From: Candidatus Methanoperedens nitratireducens
GTDB lineage: Archaea > Halobacteriota > Methanosarcinia > Methanosarcinales > Methanoperedenaceae
Direction of reading: 5' to 3'
Assembly (NCBI GenBank): GCA_020724545.1
Contig: DYGR01000011.1
Span: forward strand, 1 to 64,000
Length of the DNA: 64,000 bases
Numbering within the stretch: the first letter of the stretch is position 1; every line of letters starts with the position of its first letter. A program made the translations under genes and the position numbers. Below the pieces are notes generated by a model. The model saw nothing but the letters and a program-made list of their open reading frames with translations, was not told where the DNA came from and ran no database searches. Positions 40,717 to 51,198 of the stretch are shown here, piece by piece.

Positions 40717-41694
40717 ATGGCTGAAAGAAAAGGATTAGAGGATTTACCGGGCGTTGGTCCCGCGACGGCAGAGAAGCTAAAAGAAGCAGGTTATGGCTCG
40801 ATAGAGGCCATAGCAGTATCATCATCGTCTGAACTTGCCAGTGTTGCAGATATTGGCGAATCCACTGCTCAAAAGATCATTAATGCGGCACGTCAGGCTG
40901 CGGATGTAGGGGGCTTTGAGACCGGGGATTTAGTGCTTGAGCGCAGGAAACTTGTTGGCAAGATCAGCTTTGGATCCAGGGCTCTGGATGATCTGATGGA
41001 CGGCGGCATTGAGTCCCAGGCAATATCCGAATTCTATGGAGAGTTCGGCTCAGGAAAGACACAGGTAGGGCACCAGATGGCAGTAAATGTGCAACTGCCA
41101 AAGGAAGAGGGGGGCCTTGGAGGTTCAGTGGTGATCATAGATACAGAAAACACCTTCAGACCGGAGAGGATCACCCAGATGGTTATGGGGCTTGCCTCAA
41201 TGAAAGGGGTTGAGTATGACCCCGGGGAATTCCTGAAAAACATTCATGTGGCAAAAGCGTACAATTCAAACCATCAGATACTGCTGGTAGATACGGCTTC
41301 TGAACTTGCGAACAAATTAAAAGATACAGATAAACCTGTGCGACTCTTGGTAGTTGATTCACTTACAGCGCATTTCAGGGCAGAGTATGTGGGACGTGGC
41401 ACGCTGGCGGACAGGCAGCAGAAACTCAACAAGCATATGCATGACCTGATGAAGTTCTCAAACCTGTATAATGCAGCTATCCTTGTAACCAATCAGGTAA
41501 TGTCAAAGCCTGATGCCTTCTTCGGGGACCCGACAAAACCCATCGGCGGCCATATCGTGGGACATACTGCCACGTTCAGATTGTACCTGCGCAAATCCAA
41601 GGGCGAGAAGAGGATTGCAAGACTTGTGGATTCCCCTAACCTGCCCGAGGGAGAGGCTATATTCTCAGTTACCATGGAAGGAATTAAGGATTGA
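40717..41694 (+). CDS. radA: DNA repair and recombination protein RadA
   Basis: A complete 325-residue archaeal RecA-family recombinase. The N-terminal helix-hairpin-helix domain ([19 protein letters not shown]) is followed by the polymerisation motif, Walker [14 protein letters not shown] and Walker [41 protein letters not shown] is the L1/L2 region. GGAGAG precedes the ATG. It forms filaments on single-stranded DNA for homologous recombination. Its stop overlaps the next gene's TTG. Confidence 0.97.
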
Positions 41695-42365
41695 AGGCTA
41701 TTGTAGTTGATGTTGACGGGACTATTACATTCATAGACAGGAGCCTTGATTGCAGGGCGGTCAGGGCGCTTCGATCCCTGAGTGTACCTGTTGTGATCGC
41801 TACAGGAAACGTCCTCTGTTCTGCAAGGGCTATCTCAAAACTTGTGGGAACAAGCGGCATCGTGATCGCAGAGAACGGAGGGGTCGTGGAATGCAATAAA
41901 GTCGAGTATAACACTGCTTACATGAAAGAATGTGAGGAGGCCTTCAATTTCCTGAATGAGCATTTTAATTTTAATCTTGAAAAACTTGACCCTGAGAACA
42001 GGAGAACTGAGATCGGTCTGCGCCGGAATTTTGATGTTGAAAGAGCAAATCTGCTCCTGCAGGAGTATCCCGGGGTTGAGATCGTTGATACCGGCTTTGC
42101 AGTCCATATCAAAAGTAAAATGATTAACAAAGGCACGGGACTTAAACGAATAGCAGAATTGATGGGGCTTGATGCGCAGGATTTTGTTGCCATAGGGGAT
42201 TCGCCCAATGATGCCGAGATGCTGGAATTATCGGGTTTTGGTGTGGCTGTGGGAAATGCACATCCTGAATTAAAGGGGATTGCGGATATGGTTACAAAGG
42301 GTGAGCACGGCGCAGGGGTGGCGGAGGCGGTGCAGTATCTTAAAGAGAAGGGAGAGATAAGATAA
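41691..42365 (+). CDS. phosphoglycolate phosphatase (archaeal HAD-IIB type)
   Basis: A 224-residue HAD phosphatase. The nucleophile motif is [11 protein letters not shown], motif II lies in VPVVIATGN, motif III at [11 protein letters not shown], and motif IV at [13 protein letters not shown]. The C2-type cap and length fit the archaeal phosphoglycolate phosphatase group. Start is TTG at 41691, overlapping the radA stop by 4 bp. A decayed copy of its 3' end lies at 42930-43004. Confidence 0.9.
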
Positions 42366-42436: not shown

Positions 42437-42625
42437 GTGAAAGGAGTAAAACAACAGATTATCCGAATGATAGAGGCTCTCCCTGATGACACTACAGTCG
42501 ATGATGTCATGGCAGAACTATATTTTAAACAGCAAATTGATGCTGGTTTGAAGGAGCTTGATGAAGGGAAGGGGATATCCCATGAAGAGGTAGAAAAGCG
42601 GATGTCCAGATGGCTCACAAGATAA
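42437..42625 (+). CDS. antitoxin of a ParE/RelE-type module
   Basis: A 62-residue helical protein: VKQQIIRMIEALPDDTTVDDVMAELYFKQQIDAGLKELDEGKGISHEEVEKRMSRW by parts. The ALPDD-x-T-x-DDVM-x-EL and GISHEEVEKR segments are typical of archaeal antitoxins placed before ParE-type toxins. It overlaps the toxin by 16 bp. Confidence 0.88.
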   Translation: MKGVKQQIIRMIEALPDDTTVDDVMAELYFKQQIDAGLKELDEGKGISHEEVEKRMSRWLTR

Positions 42626-42903
42626 GATGGTCCCCGCGGGCAGCCTCAAGCTTTGAGGAGATATGCAGCTACATTGCCAGAGATTCTGAAGTTTATGCAA
42701 CTCTTTTTGCTAAAAAAATAAATGAAACCATAAAATCTATTCCCCAATTTCCTGAGTCTGGAAGAATCGTACCTGAATATGGGGACGAGAACATACGGGA
42801 AAAGATATACGAAAAATATAGAATCATATATCGCATCAAGGAAGAAGTTATTGAGATTGTGGCTATCTGTCATGGTTCCAAGCTCCTGGATAATATTCTA
42901 TAA
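42610..42903 (+). CDS. ParE/RelE-family toxin
   Basis: A 97-residue toxin: IRWSPRAASSFEEICSYIARDSEVYATLFAKKI, IPQFPESGRIVPEYGDENIREKIYEKYRIIYRI and VIEIVAICHGSKLL show the complete ParE fold. The REK-x-Y-x-YRIIYRI core is the usual active face. Coupled to the antitoxin. Confidence 0.92.
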   Translation: MAHKIRWSPRAASSFEEICSYIARDSEVYATLFAKKINETIKSIPQFPESGRIVPEYGDENIREKIYEKYRIIYRIKEEVIEIVAICHGSKLLDNIL

Positions 42904-43004: not shown

Positions 43005-43208
43005 ATGGAAACAATTAAAAAAGAAGAAGTATTATTTTATATTACCAAAGAAACTATGCAGTATGAGGCAATGCAGAAAATTGGTAGATATTTAACAGAT
43101 GAAGAATTAGACGTTGCAAAAAAAGGACTTGAATGGGGTCTGATGACTGATATAGATACAGTTTATAATGCTATCCTTTTTGAAATGATAAAAGATAAAG
43201 TTCCTTGA
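43005..43208 (+). CDS. small hypothetical protein (67 aa)
   Basis: Begins METIKKEEVLFYITKETMQYEAM and contains KIGRYLTDEELDVAKKGLEWGL, an acidic helical pattern. It could be an antitoxin-like or regulatory protein; no partner is next to it. It converges on dpdA, ending 22 bp from that gene's stop. Family not recognised. Confidence 0.5.
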   Translation: METIKKEEVLFYITKETMQYEAMQKIGRYLTDEELDVAKKGLEWGLMTDIDTVYNAILFEMIKDKVP

Positions 43209-43230
43209 ATTAAGCTTATATTGGAACATA

Positions 43231-44532
43231 TCATATACTTTTTATATGTCGTTCTTCAAGCCACTTTTTCATTTGAGAGAGTCTTTTTCCTATTTTACCA
43301 TCTGCATATAATAATTTAGTATCTCTTGGCAGATTTTTATTAAAACCATCAATAGCCAATGAGTAATCGCTACCTATATTGATAAATATATTTTCGTACT
43401 TTTTATTTGATATCTGTTTTCTGAGCGTCTGTATCACTTTGTTTTTAATAGAGTTTGCAATTTCCTTATTCATTTTCAAGTCATAATCTTCGATATTCTC
43501 ATTTGGTTGAAGCAAACCATATTTTGCTGAAATTATTGCGATATCTAAACTGTTATTATAATTACTACTGTGCATTATTTTTCGTAACACTTTATAAGAA
43601 GGCCCATCGTATCTTTCAATCGCAGGCAAAAGAGTTGAGCTCTTGATTTTTTTTTGTGAGCATGCAAGTATAAGTAAATCGTTAAAAGAGCCATTCAGCT
43701 TTTTATAAATCTTGGTTTCTATGTACTCATGTATTTGTAAGAATCGATCCTTCTGTGCAGCTTCAGCAGTTAAAAACGGTTTTTTTTCGTAATTAAAAAT
43801 CCAGCCCTTATAGTCCCCACCAAATACGTTTAATTCATTGAACTTATCATGCCTCTTGGGATGATAACATCCAAGAACGAAAAGCCAATCATCTGGATAT
43901 TTGTCTCGTATCGTTTTTATGACATTATATAAAAAAGTCTCATCGCGTACTCGCGTATATCGTGCTGTATTCTCCAATTTTTTCAAAAGACCGCCAATAG
44001 CAATATGCTTATACCCCAATTTTTTAAGACCATTATAGCATTCTAAATACTCTTCTGGTGTATTTCCTTGCGCAACACCAATTAATTTAAATGAGTAATC
44101 CTTTTTTTTGTATTCTTTTAAAGCATCTGAGGCGCTTTTAATTGTCTTTTTCTTATCTTTTAAATAATCGATGACTATCCCATAGTCCGCATCCATATTT
44201 TGATAGATTTTAAATAGATCTTTATACGCTCTATCGCAGCCATTTTTCGTAAAAACGCCTGAATCACACGCCCGAATAGTTCTTTTTCTTATCAATGATC
44301 CCGCTGAGCATTTTTTCAAATCATAATTATACGGGCATGATCCATTAATTATGTCACAAAATTCATTATCCGTGCATGGGTATATTTGAAAAAGATCTTG
44401 GAAATGTTTACTTGTGTTTGCATGCCCCATTATCCCAACTTTAACATCGTATTTATGCAGACCAGAGCTTTTTATTATTCTCAAAGAAACCAATCTATCT
44501 GCTACAAAAAAAGGAATAATAGGTTCTTTCAT
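43231..44532 (-). CDS. DpdA-like 7-deazaguanine DNA transglycosylase with DUF6884-type domain
   Basis: A 433-residue protein related to tRNA-guanine transglycosylases but not the housekeeping archaeosine enzyme. TGT-type residues: Asp90 in RACDSGVFTKNG (the DSGGF region), Asp122 in GIVIDYL, GVAQGNTPEEY (152-156), HIAIGGLL (176-183) and a late Asp240 in FGGDYKGW. About residues 285-425 form a second domain (LLILACSQKK, AIERYDGPSYKVLRK, AIISAKYGLL) like the DUF6884 part found with DpdA proteins. DpdA exchanges guanine in DNA for preQ0-type bases. It is third in a minus-strand operon after NurA- and HerA-like genes (23-bp gap). Confidence 0.75.
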   Translation of the reverse strand: MKEPIIPFFVADRLVSLRIIKSSGLHKYDVKVGIMGHANTSKHFQDLFQIYPCTDNEFCDIINGSCPYNYDLKKCSAGSLIRKRTIRACDSGVFTKNGCDRAYKDLFKIYQNMDADYGIVIDYLKDKKKTIKSASDALKEYKKKDYSFKLIGVAQGNTPEEYLECYNGLKKLGYKHIAIGGLLKKLENTARYTRVRDETFLYNVIKTIRDKYPDDWLFVLGCYHPKRHDKFNELNVFGGDYKGWIFNYEKKPFLTAEAAQKDRFLQIHEYIETKIYKKLNGSFNDLLILACSQKKIKSSTLLPAIERYDGPSYKVLRKIMHSSNYNNSLDIAIISAKYGLLQPNENIEDYDLKMNKEIANSIKNKVIQTLRKQISNKKYENIFINIGSDYSLAIDGFNKNLPRDTKLLYADGKIGKRLSQMKKWLEERHIKSI

Positions 44533-44555
44533 TATTCTTCACCTAAAATGATTAT

Positions 44556-46451
44556 TCATTTACTCTTTCCTTTAGCTGCTTGAAGAATCCGTTCATTCGC
44601 ATCATCTGCCACTGTAGGAATTGGAACACCCTTCAATCCTGTGGCATCATGGCTGATTATTAGCCAATTCCCAGGTCTAAATGTGAAAGTTGGAGAGAGT
44701 TGTTCCTCTCCTATTCCAAAAGCTTCTGCCACCCTTTGTCTATCAGTCGAACGCGGTAGTTTGCTCACAAAATAAGTATGTAGATTTCCCATTACCTCCG
44801 TATCTAGCATTGCTGCTCTCTGAGTCGCTATTCCTATGCCTAACCCAAACTTTCTACCCCTTCTGGCTAATGTTACACACAATTCTTTTATTTCGTTCGT
44901 CTCTTCATTTCCGCTATCCAATGGAATAAACAAGTCTGCTTCATCAAATAGGAACAATGTATGAGGTTCTAATTTTCCTTCCCGTCTTCGTGATTCATAA
45001 AGTTCATTGCCAAGAATAGAGCAAAACCTCTTTAAGTCAGAGTCCCGACGAGCTGTAATTATCAGTGTTTGACAAGCTTTTTTGTTGTTTAATGTTTCAA
45101 TTAGTACCTTAGTGGGAATTATAGCACTTGGTGGAATTTCTAAAAGAATGTTCTGTAATCTATTCAAAGAGTTACGTGTTCGCATAATGACGCCCTTGGC
45201 GGTAGAATTTTTTGATTCATTATTTTTTCCACTAAGGCGGTCATCTATAATCGTAAAAACAATTCCTAATCGGTCAATAGCCTGCTTTATAGATTCAGCA
45301 TTTATTGGTGTTTCATCAAAGAATTTTGTCCATTGCATCTCTAATTCTCTGAGTACATCTCTTACAGCATTTCCAGTTCCTGTTTCGATTTGTTCTTGTA
45401 TTTCATCCTTAATCAACATAGATAAAGTTGTTGCAGGCAATGCGATTTTTGTTCGCTTTAATGCTTTAGCAACACCTTTAGACAAATAATTTTGTAAATT
45501 AGGATCACCTTTCAAACGAGCAGGGAGTTTCATCGATCGAAGAAAAAGATCCACAATCTCCAATGGGATTTCATCATCAATATCTTTTAAACATTTTATT
45601 ATAGGAAGTTGTAGAGAATCTGTACCTACATGGATGTATCGCATTTCTTCAGGAGCATTTACAAATCTATCCATTAAGAGTCCAATGTATTCATCATTAG
45701 GATCAATGATGACAACATTGGACTTCTCATTTACATCTACAGAAGATAGTGCTGTAACCATAGATGAGACAAGATTTGATTTTCCAACCCCAGTAAATCC
45801 AAATATTCCAAAATGCGTTGTTAATAAAGCCTCTTTGTTGAGTTTGATATTAATTTCTGCAAATTTTTTATGTACGAATGGGGATTTTGGTTGGTCTTCC
45901 ATTCCCTGATTGATGATTCCATCGACCATTTTCATACTAAGTGGTCTTACTTCTGCCCCTACCATAGGTAAATTTTTTTCATCATCGAGAATTGGCAGTG
46001 ATTCGCTTCTGGGATCATAAAAGAATTGCCAACCAGTAGAAACTGCATGTGAAATAATAGTTGTTGTGGGGTGGAGTGGTCGATCACTTTGTTTTTCCCA
46101 ATCTTCTTTTATTGATCTCATTGATTCAAAAACGTGTCCTGGGTAAGCATCCGTTCCTTGGGAGGCAAAGTGAATGGGATATACCTGAGTAAGTGTCAAT
46201 ACAGAATAAGTCTTAAGATCTTTTTCTGGAGGCGTATAATTTTCAACTGAAACAAGGTCTCCTATCTGAAGAGAATCAAGACCTAATCTGGTATATTGGC
46301 TCCAAAGTTCGAATTCAAATCTCCCTTGTTTATCAGGGGTCGTTCTTACTAATGCGGATCTTGCACCGTACAATCTATTTTCATCAAACGGATTTATACT
46401 CAAATTAACCATCTCTTGATTGCCGTAATGTTTTATAAATTGGATTTGCAC
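44556..46451 (-). CDS. HerA-like DNA translocase ATPase
   Basis: A 631-residue FtsK/HerA-superfamily ATPase starting at GTG. It has an N-terminal HAS-barrel-like domain (about 1-100), Walker A GIFGFTGVGKSN (about 215-226), Walker B TLFLFDEADLF (about 500), sensor region IGIATQRAAML and the arginine-bearing VSKLPRSTDRQRVAEAFGI. HerA forms hexamers that pump DNA toward an associated nuclease. It overlaps the NurA-like gene by 47 bp, which signals a tight complex. It is longer than the housekeeping HerA (about 500 residues) and has no mre11 or rad50 beside it. Confidence 0.88.
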   Translation of the reverse strand: MQIQFIKHYGNQEMVNLSINPFDENRLYGARSALVRTTPDKQGRFEFELWSQYTRLGLDSLQIGDLVSVENYTPPEKDLKTYSVLTLTQVYPIHFASQGTDAYPGHVFESMRSIKEDWEKQSDRPLHPTTTIISHAVSTGWQFFYDPRSESLPILDDEKNLPMVGAEVRPLSMKMVDGIINQGMEDQPKSPFVHKKFAEINIKLNKEALLTTHFGIFGFTGVGKSNLVSSMVTALSSVDVNEKSNVVIIDPNDEYIGLLMDRFVNAPEEMRYIHVGTDSLQLPIIKCLKDIDDEIPLEIVDLFLRSMKLPARLKGDPNLQNYLSKGVAKALKRTKIALPATTLSMLIKDEIQEQIETGTGNAVRDVLRELEMQWTKFFDETPINAESIKQAIDRLGIVFTIIDDRLSGKNNESKNSTAKGVIMRTRNSLNRLQNILLEIPPSAIIPTKVLIETLNNKKACQTLIITARRDSDLKRFCSILGNELYESRRREGKLEPHTLFLFDEADLFIPLDSGNEETNEIKELCVTLARRGRKFGLGIGIATQRAAMLDTEVMGNLHTYFVSKLPRSTDRQRVAEAFGIGEEQLSPTFTFRPGNWLIISHDATGLKGVPIPTVADDANERILQAAKGKSK

Positions 46452-48258
46452 GATTAAGACGCTCTGAAGAACGAAGCATTGGTTCTACCATTTTCAATAT
46501 GGATTTTGCACCTCTATCGGCATGATGTAAAGGATCAGGATAGCCTATCACTTCTGGAAAAACATTCCTTGTCAGCACTGATAAAAGGTACATTGTAAGC
46601 TCTTGCTCGCGATTTGGGATACTTGCATTTGCATGAAAAAAAGGTTCAACATTTCCAAGGTCTTTGTTTCCTTCTGTGACACTAATCTTTTTGGGAGGAA
46701 GAGCGCCGGGATGAATCAATCGATCTACAAAAATTACATGTCCCATAGAAGGTTCCATTGGTGGTTCACGAAGTAAATGAAATTGAACGAGAGACCGCAT
46801 GACTAAGTTTGGTTGTACCAGGACATCTCCTCTAACTCCTTGAAGAGTTGCCTTTGCAGAACCCCATTCCTTTCTCATTCTTAATGTCATAAAAACAGCA
46901 TCGAATTCAGTAGAACTCCATGGTCCTTCAATGTTTTCATCAATAAATGGGCACCTCTCAAAAGTCAACCTGTCTGTTGCTGGTATTAATCTCGGTCTAA
47001 AAGAGAACTCTCCTACTGATTTCATCACACCAAGATAATGATTTGTAAAATAGGTTGAAGCAGAATCTTTTGCCACCCCTATAAATATTACTCCATTTCG
47101 CCAACTTTGTTCGAATATGAGACGTAATCCAATTGCCAAGAGAAAGGAGAGTTCGTCAGAAGAAAGAAAACGTGTTCGTTCAAGTCCATCTTCATCTACA
47201 TATTTGTAAAGTAAAACAGATGGGTCTTTATCTCTGAAAAACTGATTACAGAAGTGAAGATATAATCTTTCTATTTTAGAGGGTGAATTAGCATAATCTG
47301 GATTTAATGAAATTATTTTTCTTTCCTTATCTATCTTTACTAAGGCGTCATCTGGATTTTTTCCATCTATTTTCTCTCCAAAACGGTTACATTCCCATAT
47401 AAGCCTTATCTGCTTTGTTACGACATCAAGAGGTAAACGGACATCTTTTGCAAACTCATCCAGGTTCAATTTATTATCCGAAGATTCATATAATTTTGCA
47501 ATCGCTCGTTCCCATAATCTGTGGCTTTTTCTAGATGGAATATCAAGTTTTGAATTCCAAGGTTTAGAGTATCCAACAAGCAAATCTGGATACCATATAG
47601 TTTCACCAGCAATCATTACACCTGCAAATCGCAATTTGCGAACATTAGGCGTCGCATTAGCCAAAACAGAGGACAAAGAATGATCCCAAAGCAATAAGTG
47701 GGGATGATCCATACCTGAGGCACCTCGATATAAAAGAAAACTCTCTGCCAAAAGCATTAATGAAGTATCTAAACTTGAAATAGAGATTCTTTCAGCATCA
47801 TTTACGACAAAACGATCTTCAGGATCTAATGTTGTCAAGTCTTCTGGACTAAGTGGCAGATATGCTACAAGACTGCTATCATCTTCTGGTTCTGACTCTC
47901 GATAAGAAATTAAAGGGGGATTCTCCTGAAGTCCAAGTTCTCCTTTAACAACATAAGCGCCCCCATAAAATATTGCAAGATCAGAAGTCTCTATCTTTGT
48001 ACATGCACCGTCAATCGCCCAAAATCTAAGTGAACTATTTCTATGTCTTTGTTGAAGCTCACGATGCATCTCCCGTCGAAATGCTTCATTTTTAAAAAAA
48101 GACCCATAATGAACTATGTGGTTTTTAAGAAATTCCTTATAAAATTGCTCAAGTTCATTAGTTCCTTTGATAACTCTATTTTCTAATCGATTTCGTGTTT
48201 GAGAAAGACTTTTATCATAAAGTCCAAAAATATTTGATATTGTTGGTCGTTCAGTCAT
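46405..48258 (-). CDS. NurA-domain nuclease-like protein (long form)
   Basis: A 617-residue protein with the NurA pattern: first Asp in RFWAIDGACTKIE (Asp83), LLLWDHSLSSVLAN near 195, a central FIGVAKDSASTYFTNHYL and a C-terminal HADRGAKSILKMV. These are the dispersed metal-binding and core motifs of the RNase H-like NurA fold. It is far longer than typical NurA (about 330-450), with a 200-residue middle insertion resembling a helical or winged-helix module (LDEFAKDVRLPLDVVTKQIRL). It is first in the operon with the HerA- and DpdA-like genes, and probably resects or degrades DNA delivered by the HerA ring. Confidence 0.8.
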   Translation of the reverse strand: MTERPTISNIFGLYDKSLSQTRNRLENRVIKGTNELEQFYKEFLKNHIVHYGSFFKNEAFRREMHRELQQRHRNSSLRFWAIDGACTKIETSDLAIFYGGAYVVKGELGLQENPPLISYRESEPEDDSSLVAYLPLSPEDLTTLDPEDRFVVNDAERISISSLDTSLMLLAESFLLYRGASGMDHPHLLLWDHSLSSVLANATPNVRKLRFAGVMIAGETIWYPDLLVGYSKPWNSKLDIPSRKSHRLWERAIAKLYESSDNKLNLDEFAKDVRLPLDVVTKQIRLIWECNRFGEKIDGKNPDDALVKIDKERKIISLNPDYANSPSKIERLYLHFCNQFFRDKDPSVLLYKYVDEDGLERTRFLSSDELSFLLAIGLRLIFEQSWRNGVIFIGVAKDSASTYFTNHYLGVMKSVGEFSFRPRLIPATDRLTFERCPFIDENIEGPWSSTEFDAVFMTLRMRKEWGSAKATLQGVRGDVLVQPNLVMRSLVQFHLLREPPMEPSMGHVIFVDRLIHPGALPPKKISVTEGNKDLGNVEPFFHANASIPNREQELTMYLLSVLTRNVFPEVIGYPDPLHHADRGAKSILKMVEPMLRSSERLNRANPIYKTLRQSRDG

Positions 48259-48301
48259 TATTTACCACTAATGTCTTGAAATATATGGTGAACAATTCAA
48301 A

Positions 48302-48487
48302 TTAGCTAGGAAGGAATATTATATATTCCTCGCTAACAATTTTTGTTTCCAAACCAGAACTGTAAAATAGAGGAACGCTAATTTTTACCAAATACTCAGT
48401 ATCCCTTTTTTCCAAAGTTTTCACCTTATATAACTTTAATGTATTTGATTGATTATATACATTTTGACATAAATTGGATACGCACAT
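48302..48487 (-). CDS. doubtful small protein (61 aa)
   Basis: A 61-codon frame (KVKTLEKRDTEYLVKISVPLFYSSGLETKIVSEEYIIFLPS) upstream of the NurA-like gene on the same strand. The alternation of polar and hydrophobic residues is compatible with a small beta protein, but no family is recognised and no strong ribosome-binding site is seen. The rest of 48259-48679 is promoter-type sequence for the cassette and for tRNA-Lys. Confidence 0.3.
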   Translation of the reverse strand: MCVSNLCQNVYNQSNTLKLYKVKTLEKRDTEYLVKISVPLFYSSGLETKIVSEEYIIFLPS

Positions 48488-48679
48488 TTTCTTTTATCCC
48501 CCTCAATGACCTCCGAAATTCTCTCCCTCGCCAAATACCCCTTGCTACCCCATGCGTCGAATTTGCCCCCTCTGAGATGAATCTGTATCTCAGTAAAAAA
48601 ACACGATGAAATTCTGGATGGGCTCCTGGGTTTCGAAACTTATATATCGGGAGAGAATTATTAGGATAAAGTCCTTTTT

Positions 48680-48753
48680 GGGCTGGTAGCTTAGTCAGGC
48701 AGAGCGTCGGACTCTTAATCCGACGGCCGTGGGTTCGAATCCCTCCCAGCCCG
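48680..48753 (+). tRNA. tRNA-Lys (CTT)
   Basis: A 74-nt cloverleaf: acceptor GGGCTGG/CCAGCCC, discriminator G, anticodon stem TCGGA/TCCGA with loop CTCTTAA giving CTT, T arm GGGTTCGAATCCC. Its last 12 bases are repeated with flanking sequence at 51166, marking it as an integration site. Confidence 0.96.
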
Positions 48754-48792
48754 CTATTGATTTTTCAAACAACTACTCAAAAAAAAACAAAT

Positions 48793-48912
48793 GTGGGTTT
48801 CGATACTCTTGAAAAATTGTTAAGACTAAAAGACCTCACCGACAGAACAATAGAGACCTATCTCAGTTGCTATAATCTACATTCCGTACATTTTAGAGAG
48901 TATATATCTTAA
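48793..48912 (+). pseudogene. tyrosine-integrase N-terminal remnant
   Basis: A 39-codon frame immediately after the tRNA repeat, reading VGFDTLEKLLRLKDLTDRTI and then ETYLSCYN. It fits the SAM-like N-terminal domain of tyrosine recombinases (a helix, LT-D-RTIE-x-YL). Similarity ends where an inverted repeat begins at 48871, so an insertion may have cut the gene. Position beside the att repeat supports the reading. Confidence 0.6.
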
Positions 48913-49201
48913 TTAATTTTTTATGCCCGTATAGGTAGATTATACCTCGTAGCATATTGATTCCGATAACAATTTATTTTAGAGTGATGACAATAAAAAT
49001 CATATAATATGGATACATTATAATATATTTATTCATTTCAAAAACTTTCCAGCCTGAGATTCCAATCACACAATTTATATAATTATTAATAAATTCGTAA
49101 TATTAACTTAAGTAATAATAATTTAATTTCAGTAATTAATAAAATCGAAATCAGAAGAAATAGAAAATAGAATAACCAAAGGATACGGAATGTAGGCTAT
49201 A
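48871..49201. repeat. AT-rich 331-bp segment bounded by 18-bp inverted repeats
   Basis: TATAATCTACATTCCGTA at 48871-48888 is the inverse of TACGGAATGTAGGCTATA at 49184-49201 (16 of 18 match). Between them is very AT-rich sequence without a gene. The layout resembles a small non-autonomous insertion, lodged in the integrase remnant. Confidence 0.45.
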
Positions 49202-49299
49202 ATTTAAAAATCAATCGAATTATACCTCATTCCCAATCCTCATCTCCATCTGTATCTTTTGATAAAATCTTTATATTCAGATACGAATAACCTACAGAA

Positions 49300-49656
49300 A
49301 TGGCAAAAGAGAAATTTAAGGTAATAATTGTCCCATCCTTCCAAAAAGAGATTGAGAGGATAAAAGAGAAAAAACAGTTGGAGATGATTTTCAAATCAAT
49401 AGAAAAGATAGAGAGGATGGGCAAAAATGCCATCAAACTGCTTCATGTCAGGGACAAGTATATCTTGGGCGAAATAAAGTTCATGAATCCCCCTTACAGG
49501 CTTTATGTTATTGTTAACCAGGAAGACGAGAAATTCTACGTTGTCAGGTGGGAGCATAAAGAAAAACAGCAGAAAGTGATAAACCAGCTTACTGAGAAGC
49601 TGGAGTATGCGTTTGAGAGCGGGATAAAAAATATAATGGAATTATTCAGCCATTGA
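49300..49656 (+). CDS. RelE-like toxin without adjacent antitoxin
   Basis: A 118-residue RelE/HigB-like protein: FKVIIVPSFQKEIERIKEKKQLEMIFKSIEKIE, then GEIKFMNPPYRLYVIVNQEDEKFYVVRWEHKEKQQKVI. The PPYRLYVIV core and basic end fit the fold. The C-terminal 25 residues extend beyond the usual length. The only neighbour (49642) is on the other strand and converges with a 15-bp overlap, so no cognate antitoxin is evident. Confidence 0.68.
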   Translation: MAKEKFKVIIVPSFQKEIERIKEKKQLEMIFKSIEKIERMGKNAIKLLHVRDKYILGEIKFMNPPYRLYVIVNQEDEKFYVVRWEHKEKQQKVINQLTEKLEYAFESGIKNIMELFSH

Positions 49657-49860
49657 TTTGATCTTATACATTAATTGTTTCTTAAAATCTTCAGTTTTTA
49701 TGGGTGTAACATTACCTTTCTCTATAGCTATGACCTCTGGCATATATCTCGCAAGCAGAAATTCATAATAAATTCTATCTGCCACTTCGCTGGCTATGCT
49801 TTTCGAGATGTCTTTTATGCTTTTTTCATCGAACCTGAAGCCATAATCTTGCTGTTGCAT
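49642..49860 (-). CDS. small hypothetical protein (72 aa)
   Basis: From the likely start MQQQDYGFRFDEKSIKDISKSI (49860) a 72-residue acidic-helical protein. It contains IASEVADRIYYEFLLARYMPEVIAIEKGN, a helix-turn pattern seen in small regulators and antitoxins. No family recognised. It converges on the RelE-like toxin with overlapping ends, so co-translation is excluded. Confidence 0.5.
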   Translation of the reverse strand: MQQQDYGFRFDEKSIKDISKSIASEVADRIYYEFLLARYMPEVIAIEKGNVTPIKTEDFKKQLMYKIKSMAE

Positions 49861-49883
49861 ACTTATCTTTATTATCCTGAAAC

Positions 49884-50910
49884 TTAAATAGTTTCGCCAT
49901 ACCTGCATTTTGTAGCGGAAGGGTTTATATTTTGGCTTGTATAAATAAACTGTGCACCCTGTCGAGGCCGCTCTAAGACAAACTGTGCCGAATTACCGAT
50001 AACATCTAAACTTCGTTGAGGTCTATCCTCTATGAATACATCCAGCCGTGAGATGTTCTCGGTCACCCCTTGCTTGAACGTGGGATGGTTGAACCCTGCG
50101 ATCCACTTCGAGACTGCATATTTCCTTTGCCCATCATCACTGTAGCCATTAACATAGTTGGCATGCGCCTGATCTATTTTGTCTGCTGTATCGCGCATAT
50201 ATTTACGTACTTTATCCCACCTAAGCTCTGGGTTCAAGGATAGAATAAGCGCAGCAACTCCGGCAGCCAGTGGTGTGGCAGAAGATGTCCCACCGAATGA
50301 ATTTGTATAGAGCCCATCTGCATCGCCTTTATTTATATCGCCCACATTAAAACCTCTGCCTTTAATAGATACATCTGTGGTAAAAATCCCTAATGAACCG
50401 CCATCACTGGGAGCGACGAAATCGATCCCTTCCCCGTAGTTGCTATAAGAAGGGCGCCAACCTAGATTATTGGAAGCACCCACAGCAATAGCCTCAGGTA
50501 CACTTGCAGGAAAATCTATTGTAGAACTGTATTCATTGCCAGTGGCCACAAATACTGCTGTTCCTTTACCGCCGCGTCCCGTTTGAATCACATCTTTTAT
50601 AGCCTGTTCAATATCACTGCTAGGAGGGGTCTTCCAACTAGCGCTAATTATATCTGCTACATCTTCTCCTTTCAAGCCATTAACCTGTCCTGTATTGTAT
50701 AGGTGCCACTGTTCATTAATAAACTCATCATTTGTCAAAGCCGCCTTCTTAAATTCTGAAACAAAGTTTGGCTCGGCAAATTCTGTTAGACCAGATTCTT
50801 GATACTTATTAGCTATCGCCAGCGTATCTTTCGGATTCTTTACCCTCAGCAAATACTGGTTGGGCACAACTTCAATTTCGTTCTCTTTATTAAATTTATC
50901 AATTTCTGAC
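49884..50910 (-). pseudogene. subtilisin-like protease with deleted catalytic core
   Basis: The minus-strand frame shows an inhibitor-like propeptide (YLLRVKNPKDTLAIANKYQES), the protease start INEQWHLYNTGQVNGLKG, and the later ATGNEYSSTIDFPASVPEAIAVGA and catalytic Ser in FGGTSSATPLAAGVAAL. The D-T/S-G and H-G-T regions that should lie between are absent: GLKGEDV joins directly to ADIISASW. Two of the three catalytic residues are therefore gone. There is no credible signal peptide, because the 5' end runs into an unrelated fragment on the other strand. Confidence 0.75.
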
Positions 50911-51056
50911 TGCGATATGTCACTCTTATAGTTGCTAACAAGGGGCAAAAAGAAATTGCAGGTATTGGTGAGGTTGAAGATGGATATTATTATAATCCTG
51001 AGGAAGTTGATTATAGGCACACGTTACCTGTTAAGTGGCTGGAACAAGATACATAG
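50910..51056 (+). pseudogene. 3' fragment of an EVE-like / McrB-associated reader domain
   Basis: A plus-strand frame reads VTLIVANKGQKEIAGIGEV, then DGYYYNPEEVDYRHTLPVKWLEQDT and stop. The pattern G-x-G-x-V ... Y-Y-x-P ... Y-R-H-x-x-P-V-x-W resembles the end of the EVE-like modified-base-reading domain often fused to McrB-type GTPases. No upstream part exists; it is antisense to the truncated protease. Weak homology, judged by eye. Confidence 0.35.
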
Positions 51057-51198
51057 GATCAATATTTTGGCAATCTACTTATAATCGATGTTTCTTTAAG
51101 TGGTGGGCAAACGTGACATGGAATTTTCGGATAAATGCAGTATCTCACTCAAATAAGTCCAAAAACCTCCCAGCCCGCTATTGATTTTTTAAATGACT

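Follow-up and report, generated by a model that had tools for sequence, protein, structure and literature searches.

The stretch analysed here (the window) comprises 64,000 nt of Candidatus Methanoperedens nitratireducens (GCA_020724545.1, contig DYGR01000011.1, positions 1 to 64,000) and carries three tightly packed minus-strand genes, which encode a NurA-like nuclease (46405..48258; 617 aa, P0003), a HerA-like translocase (44556..46451; 631 aa as called, P0002; kept in 13 loci) and a DpdA-DpdC fusion (43231..44532; 433 aa, P0001). The open reading frames lie where an initial annotation had placed them, and profile and fold searches upheld the identities that it had assigned to all three products. 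The gap of 23 bp between herA and dpdA was likewise recovered. The reported 47-bp overlap of nurA and herA is an upper limit that needs a GTG start at 46451, whereas an ATG at 46412, codon 14 of the called gene, would reduce it to 8 bp; this ATG agrees better with the starts of homologues and is more likely the true start. The cassette is AT-rich as described, with 35.7% GC compared with 43.9% in the remaining window.

The 631-aa protein matched DUF87 in Pfam (1.7e-16) and the PADLOC HerA model PDLC01055 (1.1e-48), which bears the label "Type III coevolved", and contains the Walker A and Walker B motifs GFTGVGKS and LFLFDEAD. Against the HerA_antiphage models NF042943 and NF042944 it reached 62.4 and 27.7 bits (cut-offs, 800 and 850). 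The genome encodes further HerA copies outside the cassette. For the 617-aa protein the Pfam NurA match was below threshold (0.008), and phmmer searches of the PDB with this protein and the 433-aa protein gave nothing useful; folds were therefore predicted instead. The structure predictions that the initial annotation had called for yielded a NurA fold and a DpdA fold as the top matches. The ten best PDB fold matches of the AF2 model of the 617-aa protein (pLDDT 79.4) were all NurA (9x1m, 7.6e-8), and the sequence contains an invariant Asp-Gly pair (D83-G84) and a C-terminal GYPxPLHxAD block. As had been noted, the protein is longer than the housekeeping form (617 aa compared with 319-433 residues in solved NurA chains), and no mre11 or rad50 neighbours were recognised among the ORFs surrounding the cassette. 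An insert at about residues 245-290 (47389..47526, minus strand), with weak profile matches to Lrp/MarR-type regulators and MarR-type fold matches, is probably a winged helix.

The 433-aa protein consists of a TGT/DpdA barrel half without a Zn-binding tail (residues 1-250; 43783..44532, minus strand) and a DpdC/YaaA-like DUF6884 half (residues 284-425; 43258..43683, minus strand). DUF6884 (PF21818) was matched above its Pfam cut-off (1.7e-12), TGT only below threshold; PADLOC models gave DpdA (2.7e-11) and DpdC (2.5e-8), and the score against the DpdA model NF041059 was 39.7 bits (cut-off, 200). The initial annotation had considered that arcTGT might prove to be the best match of this protein. 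DpdA was best by both fold and profile: the top fold match of the AlphaFold model (pLDDT 83.7) was the DNA preQ0 insertase DpdA (7ui4, 1.8e-9), and profile comparison gave a probability of 98.8% with canonical DpdA over 143 columns (columns 87-240) and of 11% with the arcTGT of the same genome, while the arcTGT/TgtA model TIGR00432 found no match in the protein. The earlier description as a DpdA-like transglycosylase with a DUF6884-type domain was confirmed, with one correction: the DUF6884 part belongs to the DpdC type, and the fusion therefore unites two reactions known from the Dpd pathway.

In the profile alignment, D90 (DSGVF) and D240 (GDYKGW) pair with aspartates of canonical DpdA and are invariant in 9 rows; from established TGT knowledge, we assume that they serve as acid/base and nucleophile. 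In the DUF6884 half, C291 and K295 belong to a CSxxK or CGxxK motif whose Cys and Lys are invariant in 14 DUF6884 sequences. A similar motif, PCSxKPY, is found in the DUF5591 domain of ArcS from the same genomes, and one locus (L057) carries a DUF5591 domain where the others have DUF6884. Kinship of the two domains is suggested by hhalign (31-40%) and by one Pfam match (4e-5, below its cut-off). By analogy with DpdC and ArcS, the DUF6884 half would perform nitrile chemistry. This half also resembles the peroxide-stress protein YaaA (PF03883, 1.6e-9).

A nurA of the cassette type was found in 5 of 150 related genomes, all five with the order nurA-herA-dpdA, and when 84,980 species genomes were scanned with the NurA alignment, 14 loci were obtained, from archaea and from Latescibacterota, Armatimonadota, Bacillota, Aquificota and Altimarinota. 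We compiled 15 loci with an intact nurA-herA pair and enough flank, adding the window, G084 and G287 and leaving out L058 and L060, whose contigs end within herA. A TGT-fold gene adjoins nurA-herA in every one of them (15/15), with DUF6884 in 14 and DUF5591 in one; nine loci have this domain fused behind the TGT, two have it before the TGT, and four encode it separately. Whether the three genes occur together elsewhere had been posed as a check, and they do: other archaea keep the order, and bacteria have the genes rearranged. The 15/15 association argues that their grouping is not due to chance, and the occurrence of TGT and DUF6884 as fusions in both orders or as separate genes implies that their activities are coupled. 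That nurA-herA is always accompanied by some TGT and a DUF6884-type domain, of whichever subfamily, is strong evidence for a functional unit. In Latescibacteria (L063 and L064), nurA-herA adjoins a DUF6884-DpdA fusion that scores 351 and 342 bits against the curated DpdA cut-off of 200 and matches the DNA transglycosylase 7ui4 at 8e-65; the TGTs of L065 and L057 are closer to arcTGT or general TGT than to DpdA. Several loci come from MAGs, and those of G036, G084, G287 and the Latescibacteria are single-contig or chromosome-level.

Broken copies were found in G170, where herA is shortened and a transposase-like gene lies at its end, and in G181 and G274. The NurA of the window is 72-73% identical to those of L055 and L094, at which DpdA identity is 34-38%; conversely, its DpdA is 47-51% identical to those of loci whose NurA is 33-37% identical to its own. 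These identities suggested a module swap, which was set aside because the AU test leaves a common DpdA clade unrejected (p = 0.185). Scans of IMG/VR with the DpdA and NurA alignments found no relative, and a viral origin is without support at the sensitivity of these scans. A tblastn search of phages matched the DUF6884 part only, as did every match listed in a plasmid search.

Within the genus, the cassette site lies downstream of radA (40717..41694, plus strand) and a HAD phosphatase gene (41691..42365, plus strand), which form a fixed left flank outside the system; G001, G003, G005, G007, G015, G016 and G018 have the same flank, and G001, of the same genus, has the same cassette at this site. 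A ParE-type toxin gene (42610-42903) lies immediately left of the cassette. In the sister genome G015, a 1.7-kb pair of an EcoO109I-type endonuclease and an N6/N4 methylase (L127:3108-4701; PF14511, 9e-90; N6_N4_Mtase, 9e-47) replaces the cassette. The blastn breakpoints delimit the replaced segment at 43198..48514, and the G015 flanks are 94.5% and 89.7% identical to the window at the two breakpoints. At the same site, G005 and G007 have a methylase-led operon, which in G007 includes an SNF2 helicase. The site downstream of radA is therefore a defence exchange site, and exchange with a type II R-M system at the same place strengthens a defence reading of the cassette. In other settings, the cassette is next to a type I R-M system (hsdR/M/S) in G287, lies directly beside a SIR2 and ORC/CDC6-like protein and a CARF6-type protein in G084 (L052:12496-15988), and is inserted among ABC-transporter genes in G036. 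Patchy presence, low GC, the insertion in G036 and the decayed copies fit a mobile defence gene set.

The same observations bear on a role in DNA repair, in which HerA-NurA would resect ends and the TGT-YaaA-like protein would replace damaged guanines, such as oxidised ones. We regard this role as unlikely: it agrees with the end-resection function proposed for HerA-NurA and with the YaaA likeness of DUF6884, but it is at odds with the patchy distribution, the decayed copies, a hotspot in common with R-M systems, the further HerA copies in the genome and a bacterial form whose DpdA exceeds the curated cut-off.

The cassette had been described as lying between two integration scars. On the right there is such a scar, with a tRNA-Lys repeat and an integrase scrap; on the left no matching scar was found. 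The 3′ end of tRNA-Lys(CTT) (48680..48754, plus strand) recurs at 51157-51198 as part of a 42-bp direct repeat with 83% identity (48733-48774 and 51157-51198), and the cassette lies outside this repeat pair. The stretch that the repeats bound (48733-51198) holds an N-terminal integrase scrap behind the tRNA, short ORFs and a subtilase gene. A further scrap at 48504-48593 corresponds to the start of an Rsm22-like methyltransferase gene, which is intact after the cassette in G001 (L049:11709-13223) and present in G016 (L128:4771-6252).

We propose that the cassette is probably a compact, mobile, R-M-like defence system: DpdA-DUF6884 would label the host's DNA with dPreQ0 or dADG, and HerA-NurA would break down any DNA not so labelled. 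What the analysis shows directly is the gene content, the folds, the alignment of catalytic residues, the recurrence of the cassette and its exchange with an R-M system. In Dpd islands, DpdA inserts preQ0 into DNA and DpdC converts the product (PMC12839542, PMC11888242), and HerA-NurA of T. kodakarensis degrades the two strands of dsDNA irrespective of end structure, an activity for which its authors suggested an antiviral role (PMC12977600). From these Dpd enzymes and this HerA-NurA activity, we infer that DNA without the mark is destroyed and DNA with it is spared; the DNA substrate, the mark with its sites and polarity, its protective effect and the action against viruses all belong to this inferred part. 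The DpdA half would swap guanine for preQ0, drawn from the host's own synthesis for tRNA archaeosine, in host DNA, and the fused DUF6884 half would then modify the nitrile, probably by hydration to the amide (dADG), the reaction of DpdC. The HerA ring would pump double-stranded DNA into the NurA dimer for degradation; the mark would block loading, translocation or cutting, and an unmarked invader would be destroyed.

The polarity could also be the reverse, with DpdA-DUF6884 modifying invading or single-stranded DNA and HerA-NurA recognising and degrading the modified DNA. The winged-helix insert of NurA could read a base, and 7-deazaguanine DNA can be a restriction target, as with GrwAB (PMC12137116). 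We nevertheless find such an attack marker improbable, as no component was seen that would restrict DpdA to foreign DNA, like enzymes mark self in known Dpd islands (PMC11888242), and exchange with an ordinary R-M pair suggests self-marking.

For the preferred reading of self-marking, the studied HerA-NurA relative is an exonuclease, and attack on circular DNA would therefore need a break. An end-dependent nuclease would be best suited to linear phage DNA, and broken chromosomes may gain protection from the mark as well. RecBCD is an end-degrading machine controlled by Chi. It is conceivable, although we hold it rather doubtful, that the cassette represents a defence class in which a 7-deazaguanine mark controls DNA-end degradation as Chi does with RecBCD, serving both as a self label and as a guard against over-resection; the end-degrading machines would be HerA-NurA or, in related loci, UvrD with a PD-(D/E)XK nuclease.

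The argument that preQ0 made for archaeosine would spare the cassette synthesis genes of its own holds for the window's genome, in which QueC and arcTGT were found. This genome has two other full-length TGTs and ArcS besides the 433-aa protein. One of these TGTs, encoded at L070 (G000 contig C56), is the second full-length one besides arcTGT and scores 468 bits to Pfam TGT. No match to full-length QueC was found in G078, which is 99% complete and has both the cassette and arcTGT; its preQ0 may be salvaged, or QueC may lie within an assembly gap. That the transglycosylase acts on tRNA or phage RNA, with HerA-NurA a neighbour in the same island, is very unlikely. In favour of such a role, TGTs are mostly tRNA enzymes, and those of L065 and L057 are closer to arcTGT than to DpdA; against it, DpdA rather than arcTGT is best by fold and profile here, two further full-length TGTs and ArcS are already encoded in the genome, and linkage with a DNA pump and nuclease is complete (15/15). 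The best-studied Dpd system uses DpdB, a DndB-family ATPase, for insertion. No DpdB (PF14072) was found in G000, G001, G036, G078 or G084, nor in 4 of 5 bacterial carriers, and we speculate that HerA might take its place in ATP-driven DNA access.

The cassette shares a DpdA-like transglycosylase, DpdC/DUF6884 and proposed dPreQ0/dADG self-marking with Dpd islands (dpdA-C for synthesis, dpdD-K for restriction). It differs from them in lacking DpdB in the archaeal genomes tested, in having NurA-HerA rather than DpdD-K as the proposed restriction module, and in combining DpdA and DpdC in one protein whose DpdA is short and without a Zn site; no DpdD-K was recognised among the ORFs read around the cassette and its homologues. 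In BRC (BREX-Related Capture; PMC12839542, 2026), which occurs in archaea and bacteria, a TGT likewise accompanies a HerA/FtsK translocase. The core of BRC consists of PglZ, DUF6079, a STAND NTPase and DUF4007. The authors report having found no DpdC, and NurA is unmentioned (PMC12839542). PglZ had no match in 6 of 10 carrier genomes and lies away from the cassette in the others, the window's own genome having its copy on another contig. Housekeeping HerA-NurA (PMC12977600) has the same NurA fold, HerA ATPase and gene pairing, whereas in the cassette NurA is clearly longer and probably carries a wHTH insert, DpdA-DUF6884 is linked to the pair, and the distribution is patchy and mobile. HerA-DUF4297 and SIR2-HerA defence also pair a HerA ring with an effector; in the cassette this effector is NurA, with a linked base-modifying enzyme, and HerA is far below the HerA_antiphage cut-off. 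DndFGH phosphorothioate restriction has a HerA-type domain (DndH) and a non-methylation DNA mark, but the mark proposed here is a base exchange rather than sulfur, and the DndH match is weak (4.7e-4).

The initial annotation knew of no described system joining just these three components, and our search of the open-access literature, which left subscription papers mostly outside, found nothing closer than BRC; novelty of the nurA-herA-dpdA combination is accordingly provisional. We know of no smaller base-exchange R-M system. If the proposal is true, the cassette, with one bifunctional modifier and a pump-nuclease pair, would be the smallest known, and archaeal hosts would be added to 7-deazaguanine DNA modification. 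NurA-HerA would gain a defence role, already suspected in a 2026 biochemical study (PMC12977600), and the reading of DNA modification by HerA-NurA becomes a testable question.

Related loci contain other partners. In G239 (L175:3992-10654), a DpdA-DUF6884 of the window type lies beside a Druantia DruE-like helicase that is split, and all that resembles NurA there is a scrap of 59 aa (14.6 bits); the DpdA-DUF6884 module is thus not exclusive to NurA-HerA. A cassette in G012, of the same genus (L053:5625-11030), comprises a DUF6884 gene, a UvrD helicase, a PD-(D/E)XK nuclease and a canonical DpdA (434 bits) without nurA-herA, and is possibly a second deazaguanine-linked defence variant. Archaeal fusions of canonical DpdA and DUF6884 lie beside UvrD and PD-(D/E)XK genes in G365 (L176:3101-19806), G349 (L177) and G272 (L179); L176 has a DpdJ-like helicase as well, a Dpd-type island in archaea. 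The recurrent, modular association of TGT and DUF6884 with NurA-HerA, UvrD/PD-(D/E)XK and helicases of DpdJ or Druantia-like type points to a broader family of defences marked by deazaguanine. In the two Latescibacteria loci (L063:8227-18404 and L064:8296-17286), DUF6884-DpdA, nurA, herA, UvrD and PD-(D/E)XK genes occur together, the UvrD gene of L063 being in two pieces.
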